In this document: piece after piece, positions 36,867 through 40,667 of the stretch
How positions within the stretch are numbered: position 1 is the stretch's first letter
How the letters are laid out: the number at the start of each line of letters is the position of its first letter
Origin: Acidimicrobiia bacterium
GTDB taxonomy: Bacteria > Actinomycetota > Acidimicrobiia > Spongiisociales > UBA11373
Length of the DNA: 64,000 nt
Direction: 5' to 3'
Assembly: GCA_040878325.1 (NCBI GenBank)
Contig: JBBDMM010000012.1
Location: 123,153-187,152 of the forward strand
Notes under the pieces: generated by a model
Database searches by the model: none
Seen by the model: the letters and a program-made list of their open reading frames with translations, nothing else
What the model was told of the DNA's origin: nothing
Program-made: the position numbers and the translations under genes

Positions 36867-39800
36867 ATGGCCGACTCATCGTTCGACCGGGCACCTTCGG
36901 ATGTCTCGTTCCCCGCGCTCGAGGAGCAGATCCTCGACCTGTGGGATCGGATCGACGCGTTCCACGAATCGGTGCGGATGCGGCCCGAGGACAACGAGTA
37001 CACCTTCTACGACGGCCCGCCCTTCCCCACCGGGAGCCCCCACTTCGGGAACCTCCTCGCCGGTGTCCTCAAAGACATCGTTCCCCGCTACTGGACGATG
37101 CGGGGACACCGCGTGGTGAGGCGCTTCGGCTGGGACACCCACGGACTCCCAATCGAGCTCGAGGTGCAGGACGAATTGGACCTTTCCGGCCCATCGGATA
37201 TCCGCGATTACGGAATCGCCCGATTCAACGAAGCGTGCCGCGAGCGCGTCATGGCAAACACCGAGGTATGGGAGTCGGTCACACGCCGTATCGGTCGCTG
37301 GGTCGACTTCGAGGATGACTACAAGACGATGGACACCGACTTCATGGAGTCGGTGTGGTGGGTCTTCAAGCGGCTGTGGGATGAGGGCTTGGTCTACAAA
37401 GCCTTCAAAGTGCTCCCGTACTCATGGGGCGCGGCGACGCCACTCTCCAACTTCGAGGTCAACCTCGGGGAGTACCGCGACGTCGAAGACCCGTCCATCA
37501 CGGTGCGACTCGCCGTGACCGAGGGCACCGGGCTGGTGGAACCCGGCGACCTGCTCCTGGTATGGACCACCACGCCATGGACGATGCCGTCGAACCTCGG
37601 AGTGGCCGTCGGCCGCGACATCACCTACATGCGGATCGATGAGCCCCTCGACGGCGAACCGGGGCGCCATTGGATCGCCGCTGATCGGGTATCGGCGTAC
37701 TGGCCGGAGGGCACCACGGGAACCGTGACGGCATCGGGTGAAGAGCTTCTGGGGACGCGCTACCGGCCCGCCTTCGATTACTTCGCCTCCCTCGCCGGTG
37801 ACGGCGCCTTCGTGGTCATTCCCAGCTCCGAGGTGTCCGTCGAGGAGGGGACCGGCCTGGTCCATATGGCACCCGCCTTCGGCGAGGCCGACCTGGCGGC
37901 CTTTACCGACGTCGGCCTCGACCACCTGCTCGTCGACCCGGTCGACGCCGAGGGACGATTCACCGCGGAGATCCCCGAGGTGGCAGGGGTGAGGGTCAAG
38001 GACGCCGACCCGACCTTGATAAAGCTGCTCCGGGAACGCGGTGCACTGGCCCGCAGCGAACGGATCGTGCACTCGTACCCGTTCTGCTGGCGAACCGACA
38101 CCCCGCTCATCTACAAGGCGATCCCCACCTGGTTCGTCGCCGTCGAGACGATCCGCGACCGCATGGTGGAGCTCAACGAGACCATCCACTGGGTGCCCGA
38201 TCATGTGGGCTCCCGGCGGTTCGGCAACTGGCTCGAACAGGCGCGAGATTGGGCTGTCTCCCGCAACCGGTTCTGGGGCTCGTGCATCCCCGTGTGGGAG
38301 TGCGACGGATGCGACGAAATCGTGTGCCTCGGCAGCATCGAAGAGTTGCACGAGCGAAGCGGTGTCCGCGTCGACGACCTTCACAAGCACATCGTCGACG
38401 AGGTGACCTTTGGATGCAGTGCCTGCTCCGGCACGATGCGCCGCGTCCCCGAGGTGCTCGACGTCTGGTTCGAGTCCGGGGCGATGCCATACGGGCAGAA
38501 CCATTACCCCTTCGAGAACAAGGAGCGATTCGAGCGCGGGTTCCCGGCCCAATACATCGCCGAAGGCCTCGATCAGACCCGGGGATGGTTCTACACCCTC
38601 GTCGTCCATGCGACCGCGCTCTTCGATTCGGTGCCGTTCCGCAACGGTGTGGTCAACGGCTTGATCCTCGCGGAGGACGGTCGCAAGATGTCCAAGAGCC
38701 TCAAGAACTACCCGGACCCGATGGTCCTGATCGATTCGACCGGGGCCGACGCGTTGCGGGCGTATCTGATCAACTCCCCGCTGGTTCGGGCCGAACCCAT
38801 GCGATTCTCCGAGCGGGGCGTTCGCGAGGTGGTTCGTACCGTGATGCTCCCCTATTGGAATGCGTACTCGTTCTTCACCACCTACGCCGCCGCCGAGCGG
38901 CTCACCGTCGAAGACCTTGCCTCCGCCCCAGCCCCCGCCGCCCGGCCCGAGATCGACCGGTGGATCCTCTCCGTGCTGCAGAGCCTGGTGAATCGGGTCA
39001 ACACGGAGATGGAGGGCTATTACCTGTACAACGTCATTCCCCCGCTGATCGACTTCGTGGACGACCTGACCAATTGGTACATCCGCCGCTCGCGCCGGCG
39101 CTTCTGGACCGTGCGGGGCACCGACGCCGCTGACAGCCCGGCTGCCTTCGCCACCCTCTATGAAGTGCTCGTGACCTTTTCAAAGCTGATGGCCCCGGTG
39201 TTGCCCTTCGTGACCGAAGCGATGTACCAGGAGCTCGTCGTCGCCCGGAGGCCGCGGCCGAAGGGCGGCCCCGCGAGCGTCCACCATGAGGACTATCCGG
39301 CGTCGGACGCCACGCTGATCGACCGGCGCCTCGAGGCAGACATGGCCGCGGTGCGCGAGACGGTCGGCCTCGGGAGGGGGCTTCGGGTGACGGAGGGGAT
39401 CAGGATTCGCCAGCCCCTCGCCACCCTGACCGTCGTCAGCCACGACAGTGAGGTCCGCCACGCAGTCGACCGGCACCGCGAGCTGGTTGCCGACGAGCTC
39501 AACGTCAAGTCGGTGGTCACCTCGTCCGACGAGGGAAGCCTGGCGGTGGTCACCGCCAAGCCGAACTACCGCACCCTCGGACCGCGCTTTGGGGCACGGA
39601 TGGCCGAAGCAGCCGCCGCCATCGAGCAGCTAGATCCTGCGGCCGTTGTCCGGGTCCTGGCCGGCGAGACGATCGAGTTGCTGGGCGAGGCTCTCGGCGT
39701 AGCCGACCTGGTCGTGTCCAGGGAGCCGCATCCGGGAGTAGCGGTGGCCAGCGGCGAGCGCTTGTCGGTGGCCCTCGACACCACCATCACCGCCGAACTG

Positions 39801-40337
39801 GCCCGGGAGGCGCTCGCCCGCGAGATCGTCAAGCTGGTGCAGGGCGAACGCAAGGATGCCGGCCTCGACGTCTCCGACCGCATCGATCTCACATGGGACT
39901 CCGCCTCGTCGGCCGTCGCGGCGGCATTCGAGCACCACACCGAGTGGATCGCATCAGAAGTACTGGCCGAAAAAGTCACCAGGGGCGAAGCCGGCGCGAA
40001 CCAAGACGCCGCCGGAGAGCCAGTAGCGCTACGAGTCAAGAAGTTCATCGCCAAGAAGGCACCAGAACCTCCAAAAGAGGCTGCCGCCAAGAAGGTCACT
40101 CCCAAGACAAAGGCCAAAAAGGGAAGCGCGGTTCACACCCTCCCCCACGACAAGGGCTGGGCCAACAAACGCGCCGGCGCTTCCAAGGTGAGCAAGGTCT
40201 TCTCGACGAAGACCGCCGCCCAGAAGGCGGGCCGCGAGACGGCCATTCGGGAGAAGGTGGAGCACGTAATCCACACCGCCGACGGGAAGATCGGCGTGCG
40301 GAAGTCTTACGCAATCGACCCGAGCGGCAGGCGCTAG
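36867..40337 (+). CDS. ileS: Isoleucyl-tRNA synthetase with C-terminal DUF2188-like extension
   Basis: Charges tRNA-Ile. Start ATG 36867 follows GAGGACGAC; longer frames run through the T-box. The product is 1156 aa, about 100 longer than usual. Class I motifs: PTGSPHFGN (HIGH) and GRKMSKSLKN (KMSKS). The CP1 editing domain lies between (TTPWTMPSNLG), and the anticodon-binding region follows. The protein looks like the eukaryote-like (IleS2) type. Residues about 1057-1085 are a Lys/Ala/Pro linker. The last 71 residues (HTLPHDKGWANK, VFSTKTAAQKAGRE, DGKIGVRKSYAIDP) match the DUF2188 pattern. This fusion is unusual. Regulated by the T-box. Confidence 0.96.
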   Translation: MADSSFDRAPSDVSFPALEEQILDLWDRIDAFHESVRMRPEDNEYTFYDGPPFPTGSPHFGNLLAGVLKDIVPRYWTMRGHRVVRRFGWDTHGLPIELEVQDELDLSGPSDIRDYGIARFNEACRERVMANTEVWESVTRRIGRWVDFEDDYKTMDTDFMESVWWVFKRLWDEGLVYKAFKVLPYSWGAATPLSNFEVNLGEYRDVEDPSITVRLAVTEGTGLVEPGDLLLVWTTTPWTMPSNLGVAVGRDITYMRIDEPLDGEPGRHWIAADRVSAYWPEGTTGTVTASGEELLGTRYRPAFDYFASLAGDGAFVVIPSSEVSVEEGTGLVHMAPAFGEADLAAFTDVGLDHLLVDPVDAEGRFTAEIPEVAGVRVKDADPTLIKLLRERGALARSERIVHSYPFCWRTDTPLIYKAIPTWFVAVETIRDRMVELNETIHWVPDHVGSRRFGNWLEQARDWAVSRNRFWGSCIPVWECDGCDEIVCLGSIEELHERSGVRVDDLHKHIVDEVTFGCSACSGTMRRVPEVLDVWFESGAMPYGQNHYPFENKERFERGFPAQYIAEGLDQTRGWFYTLVVHATALFDSVPFRNGVVNGLILAEDGRKMSKSLKNYPDPMVLIDSTGADALRAYLINSPLVRAEPMRFSERGVREVVRTVMLPYWNAYSFFTTYAAAERLTVEDLASAPAPAARPEIDRWILSVLQSLVNRVNTEMEGYYLYNVIPPLIDFVDDLTNWYIRRSRRRFWTVRGTDAADSPAAFATLYEVLVTFSKLMAPVLPFVTEAMYQELVVARRPRPKGGPASVHHEDYPASDATLIDRRLEADMAAVRETVGLGRGLRVTEGIRIRQPLATLTVVSHDSEVRHAVDRHRELVADELNVKSVVTSSDEGSLAVVTAKPNYRTLGPRFGARMAEAAAAIEQLDPAAVVRVLAGETIELLGEALGVADLVVSREPHPGVAVASGERLSVALDTTITAELAREALAREIVKLVQGERKDAGLDVSDRIDLTWDSASSAVAAAFEHHTEWIASEVLAEKVTRGEAGANQDAAGEPVALRVKKFIAKKAPEPPKEAAAKKVTPKTKAKKGSAVHTLPHDKGWANKRAGASKVSKVFSTKTAAQKAGRETAIREKVEHVIHTADGKIGVRKSYAIDPSGRR

Positions 40338-40353
40338 GCCCGCTACCGCCGCG

Positions 40354-40419
40354 CTCTCGCCAATCGCCAATCGCCAATCGCTGCCCGGAACTGGCGACTG
40401 GAGACTGGAGACTGGTCAG
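40354..40419. repeat. TCGCCAA / ACTGGAG heptad hairpin between ileS and yggT
   Basis: The left arm (40354-40383) is TCGCCAA repeated three times plus a partial. The right arm (40389-40419) is ACTGGCG-ACTGGAG-ACTGGAG-ACTGGTC, roughly its inverted complement. The right arm overlaps the yggT stop codon (40416-40418). It lies between convergent genes. Confidence 0.8.
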
Positions 40420-40667
40420 CAAATCACCGCTGACAAAATCCCCAAGCCGATCAGCAGGATCAACGGCGAGAGGTCGAGACCCATCCCCCCGAGCCGGACC
40501 GGCGGCAGCAGGGCGCGAAGCGGGCGAAGCACAGGCTCGGTGACGGCGCGGAAGATGGCTCGCACCCGGGCCACCGGGTGGTCATACGAGACGGGGATCC
40601 ACTCGAGCACGATCCGGGCGAAAACGACGATGCTGTACGCCTGGATGAGGAAGCAGAGGATCCCCAC
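40416..40667 (-). CDS. YggT family membrane protein
   Basis: An 83-aa protein with two membrane helices (residues about 2-20 and 62-82) around a conserved loop (ARIVLEWIPVSYDHP, VTEPVLRPLRALLPP). YggT sits downstream of sepF in most Gram-positive division clusters. Links to osmotic tolerance or cell shape are reported, but no mechanism is known. It starts 3 nt after sepF and is the last gene of the dcw operon here; no divIVA follows. Confidence 0.92.
   Translation of the reverse strand: MGILCFLIQAYSIVVFARIVLEWIPVSYDHPVARVRAIFRAVTEPVLRPLRALLPPVRLGGMGLDLSPLILLIGLGILSAVIC

Follow-up and report, generated by a model that had tools for sequence, protein, structure and literature searches.

The ileS locus analysed here raises the question whether a DUF2188 domain at the end of an isoleucyl-tRNA synthetase (IleRS) is a true part of the enzyme, from where it was acquired and what it tells about the role of the domain. 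The locus lies in a window of 64,000 nucleotides (the whole stretch of DNA analysed) on contig C12 of an Acidimicrobiia genome (G000; 2.21 Mb, 18 contigs, completeness 98.94, contamination 0.02).

Domain organisation of the ileS frame

The ileS frame was followed from the ATG at 36867 to the TAG at 40335-40337 and the ORF analysis showed no interruption. The Pfam domains were found in the order tRNA-synt_1, Anticodon_1, DUF5915 and DUF2188, and DUF2188 (PF09954) scored 58.9 bits on the full frame (E 5.6e-16, cut-off 22). The score with the ileS equivalog TIGR00392 was 876.8 bits against a cut-off of 621.4, which places the protein among the isoleucyl-tRNA synthetases; the KMSKS motif is also present. 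The 71-residue tail by itself matched PF09954 over profile positions 2-62 of 62 with 65.1 bits (E 6.2e-18, cut-off 22). A sequence-only reading of this DNA had proposed a Lys/Ala/Pro linker and a 71-residue DUF2188-like module beyond the normal IleRS end, and both were confirmed in a single uninterrupted ORF, with the Pfam match falling within the span predicted for the module (Table 1). That reading had also considered that the domain match might fail or that a frameshift might separate two genes; the match is significant, and neither a frameshift nor a stop codon lies between the parts. No in-frame ATG, GTG or TTG was found between 40005 and 40187, and the first such codon, a GTG at 40188, lies inside the domain, so that this frame offers no separate start for the tail. 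Only one IleRS match and one stand-alone-gene match were obtained for the window genome in the 59-genome sample, and the fused enzyme therefore appears to be its sole IleRS.

The linker and the domain together carry a net charge of +17 over 111 residues, against -55 for the IleRS core. The GC3 of the linker is about 0.61 (over 40008-40121) against 0.86 for the core and 0.89 for the domain. The pattern GWANK...TK-AAQ-AGR...EH-IH--DGKIG is common to the tail and the stand-alone DUF2188 members. The family motif NSYGNDP, present as such or in near variants in most members of the 17-sequence alignment, is KSYAIDP in the tail, where S, Y, D and P are retained and N and G are lost; by this comparison the conserved C-terminal motif appears to have decayed.

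Table 1. Features of the ileS locus and of the related stand-alone gene (window coordinates unless a locus is named)
Feature	Position	Strand	Basis
ileS, isoleucine--tRNA ligase with C-terminal extension, 1156 aa	36867..40337	+	ORF; TIGR00392; Pfam
Stretch of 385 bp replacing 74 bp in G001	40031..40415	.	blastn L001 vs L103
Lys/Ala/Pro-rich linker	40040..40121	+	sequence; GC3
Segment matching 3' part of stand-alone gene on G000:C15 (L002)	40088..40328	+	blastn, local alignment
DUF2188 module	40122..40334	+	PF09954 E 6.2e-18, Pfam match 40134-40310; AlphaFold2 model
Convergent gene downstream of ileS	40416..40667	-	ORF; counterpart at same place in L103; colinearity
Stand-alone DUF2188 gene, G000:C15	L002 1474-1914	-	profile match

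Origin of the C-terminal extension

The DUF2188 matches in the window genome number two in total, the ileS tail and the gene of a 146-residue protein. This protein consists of a 75-residue Lys/Ala-rich arm followed by the DUF2188 domain, and its net charge is +42, the arm alone having +34. Its score with HC2 (PF07382) was 19 bits (E 0.0016), below the membership cut-off of 40, and going by its residues the protein looks histone H1-like in composition only. The tail and the 3' part of this gene were aligned by blastn over 241 bp without a gap at 83.4% identity (E 1.2e-70). Over the domain stretch of 207 bp (69 codons) the identity was 85.5% for nucleotides and 81% for amino acids, and the differences were distributed as 6/6/18 over codon positions 1/2/3. 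This likeness makes the stand-alone gene the likely parent of the tail or a sister of that parent, although, unlike the tail, it has its own start, the long charged arm and an intact NSYGNDP. A descent of the linker from the stand-alone arm upstream of about 40088 was also considered and was not supported by a codon-shuffle test, in which 63 of 500 shuffles were equally good.

The comparison with the sister species, represented by G001 as the one other genome compared within the genus, showed the unfused state. The ileS regions are colinear on either side at 74% identity (blastn L001 vs L103), and the IleRS of G001 terminates in ...GEPVALRVERT-stop, directly after the core. The convergent gene downstream of ileS is presumably YggT-like, without a family call. 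DUF2188 is encoded in G001 by a separate gene, at a locus identical to L104 (record JAUYIV010000266.1, Actinomycetota MAG). The neighbourhoods of the stand-alone genes differ between the two species, and CTGGCATCATC is present upstream of the gene in both, where it precedes a purine-rich stretch labelled by eye as a presumed ribosome-binding site. The tail, the stand-alone gene of its genome and that of the sister are separated by nearly equal distances (85.5, 80.7 and 85.0% nucleotide identity), which dates the copy to about the time of the species split.

The origin of the tail by copying of the 3' part of the small gene onto ileS is highly probable, and the fusion is real, well delimited and lineage-restricted, arising through partial gene copying. 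In the proposed course of events the small gene, with its Lys/Ala arm and DUF2188, would have been separate as in both compared species, and in this lineage a copy of its 3' part would have come to lie at the extreme 3' end of ileS. The inserted copy would have removed the stop codon, thereby adding to IleRS a basic linker and, after it, a folded DUF2188. The tail would then be translated and project from where the C-terminal domain ends, acting as an arm that holds nucleic acid generally and without specificity; such an arm would be tolerated and may modestly aid tRNA capture. Taken overall, a partial gene copy onto the ileS 3' end, giving a basic arm and a folded domain, is the best explanation and is favoured with somewhat better than even confidence, while a useful arm function of the tail is doubtful.

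Short head-to-tail repeats, CAATCGC and CTGGAGA, were observed at 40359-40420 of the window, in the gap that follows the ileS stop codon, before the next gene. The same repeats were sought around the stand-alone gene and were not found there, and flanking repeats were accordingly rejected as the cause of the copying.

Occurrence of the fusion and of DUF2188

The survey of IleRS proteins for the same fusion, which the sequence-only reading had suggested, gave none outside the window genome in the order, class and phylum samples. The C-terminal IleRS query matched 57 of 59 genomes of the order with a tail only in G000, and four of five further genomes with a tail in none. Long DUF2188 frames from the phylum were compared with the IleRS core (81 frames in 78 loci, leaving out L014, L015, L017 and L098 as four weak or partial matches whose loci did not match the DUF2188 profile used, and those phylum-sample matches that had only frames of at most 153 aa, some perhaps cut by contig ends), and only the window's own L001 and L018 matched. 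A single scan of genomes from GTDB release 220 gave 18 DUF2188 loci and no IleRS; among these, L119 holds a 49-residue frame only and L121 a partial domain, and both were excluded from alignment A2. The 184 pattern matches in viral contigs gave no confirmed relative. The domain itself is patchy, being found in 14 of 138 genomes of the order, 21 of 395 in the class sample and 52 of 396 in the phylum sample, these samples overlapping.

DUF2188 had been described beforehand as usually occurring in small stand-alone proteins; it does not always do so, as frames with PRC-barrel/DUF2382, hemerythrin, HTH-peptidase M78 and DUF6766 also carry it. In L060 the domain stands behind another Lys/Ala arm. 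The genus-level group g285 (L077, L078, L084, L092, L093, L095 and L096) has several frames in which DUF2188 lies near the start and is followed by long charged C-terminal regions; the frame scanned, L092 554-4069, also contains four E3_binding stretches, a PRC-barrel and DUF2382. A single stop-free frame in L115 (2840-4213) joins HTH, peptidase M78 and DUF2188, and single frames in L094 (1124-2410) and L101 (1065-1724) join the domain with hemerythrin and DUF6766, respectively. DUF2188 relatives are encoded on 339 records of the plasmid collection, of which 242 come from Klebsiella. In L011, L016 and L105, 3177 bp around a DUF2188 gene are identical in G110 (family f8), G033 (family f5) and record JAPPFC010000032.1, which suggests recent transfer between two families of the order or bin contamination.

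Possible selection on the extension

The pairwise dN/dS of the tail and the stand-alone gene, which mixes both copies and so includes the constraint on the stand-alone gene, was 0.26 for the whole, 0.085 for the first 46 codons and 0.55 for the last 23. The whole pair departs from a simple neutral expectation with P 0.002-0.009, depending on the transition rate. Among the 12 changes in the first 46 codons three are nonsynonymous (P 0.0003-0.001 against neutrality, the range reflecting kappa), and the last 23 codons, with 12 of 18 changes nonsynonymous, are compatible with neutrality. When the changes were polarised by the G001 gene, the tail branch received 16, seven silent and nine replacement (one of the latter depending on the mutational path), which is not significant (P 0.06-0.13). 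The domain stretch is gap-free and the frame open at a dS of about 0.4 from the stand-alone copy. From these substitution counts the tail appears to be under partial constraint at most, and its end to be decaying.

Predicted fold and possible function

The AlphaFold2 model of the domain, made from 17 sequences, had a mean pLDDT of 83.7. The domain looks folded in this model, with three strands (9-14, 17-22 and 28-32 in model numbering), a helix (35-49) and two strands (52-56 and 62-67). The search for solved relatives by sequence gave two chance-level matches with phmmer of the tail and none with the 17-member profile. Foldseek returned nothing at E <= 0.001 and only weak Cas1 rows with a TM of about 0.3. 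The best match of a second structure comparison was an anti-CRISPR protein (Z 4.9, 59 residues, rmsd 3.1). These searches together were read as giving no assignment. A nucleic-acid-binding fold was not found among the structure matches, and this counts against the arm reading.

The simplest reading of DUF2188 would be a small, basic domain that can hold on to nucleic acid, and on IleRS such a module could raise the local tRNA concentration. The tail may plausibly serve as a nucleic-acid-binding arm, and its being a passenger that the enzyme tolerates is roughly equally probable. In the sequence-only reading the domain identity and the true fusion were correct, while the nucleic-acid or ribosome-associated role deduced from the fusion to a synthetase is weak, because the fusion was found in one genome only, the tail reproduces part of another gene of that genome, and the domain stands elsewhere beside unrelated partners. 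No close relative examined shares the tail, and the fusion therefore looks like a local event and not like a general pointer to the role of the domain. One isolated fusion gives little ground for assigning DUF2188 a role in translation, and the long Lys/Ala arm of the stand-alone gene is a better, though indirect, hint of nucleic-acid binding.

Synthetases with appended domains, in the titles and abstract openings searched, likewise combine a catalytic core with an added module, and DUF2188 is not named there; a further literature search on synthetase extensions and basic tails returned nothing. An IleRS with an additional domain has a precedent, by its name, in NF040702 (ileS_w_GNAT, NCBIfam), but the GNAT domain is unrelated and the window protein scored 262.8 against the cut-off of 1999. 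In the extracts of PMC10533825, PMC11206351 and PMC11135667, DUF2188 occurs as a table entry only, and their DUF2188 passages mention no synthetase. The window domain agrees with PF09954 in its full-length match above the cut-off and differs in being fused C-terminally to an aminoacyl-tRNA synthetase and in the decayed NSYGNDP. A synthetase with an appended domain is a known kind, and DUF2188 on IleRS is new within the searches made. The locus provides a clean within-genome case of an essential enzyme gaining an appended domain through a small-gene segment copied to its 3' end, as the parent-like gene, the fused copy and the unfused sister are all readable. For DUF2188 the fusion offers one testable hint and no more.

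Alternative explanations

The chance that the tail is a neutral passenger is not far below even. The copied segment would then only have removed the ileS stop codon and would be slowly decaying, tolerated because the IleRS C-terminus is exposed. The relaxed-looking C-terminal third with its lost motif, the low GC3 of the linker and the presence of the fusion in one genome only agree with such a passenger, whereas the still open frame, the gap-free domain stretch at that distance from the stand-alone copy and the mostly silent pairwise changes of the first 46 codons speak against it. A more ambitious possibility is that the lineage recruited the basic arm and DUF2188 by copying part of a small chromatin-like gene and that the tail now helps to hold tRNA or anchors the enzyme on nucleic acid or on ribosomes; this is rather unlikely, and if true, DUF2188 would be a general nucleic-acid-binding module attachable to proteins.

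An old fusion of the genus ancestor, lost in the sister, would make DUF2188 an established IleRS domain. The near-equidistance of the three copies fits such an age, but the sister species has 74 bp at that place and tail-bearing IleRS was confined to the window genome throughout the order, class and phylum samples, so this history is very unlikely. Scarcely credible is an assembly or binning artefact, by which the tail of another gene or organism was joined to ileS in silico. The assembly in 18 contigs speaks for it, and the identical 3177-bp loci in two families show that such assemblies can mislead; against this, the tail and the one other copy in the genome differ at about 15% of sites, so that the tail is no mis-joined duplicate, colinearity with the sister species extends over both flanks, and the reported values are 98.94 for completeness and 0.02 for contamination.

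HIGH motif of the synthetase

The class I HIGH motif of the window IleRS is HFGN (residues 59-62, 37041-37052), which is non-canonical at the fourth place. The N-terminal IleRS query was applied to 13 genomes of the family, and the motif was readable in 12, as HYGN in nine, HYGT in two and HFGN in one; the thirteenth, G037, has a divergent IleRS without a HIGH-type pattern. In the class sample (30 loci read from a 60-genome search) HYGN was found in several families, including a group of genomes of about 1 Mb, and HYGH in others. The forms HXGH and G/AXHH of the motif are described in PMC10485003, the main text of which does not contain HYGN or HXGN. The motif is possibly relevant to mupirocin sensitivity.
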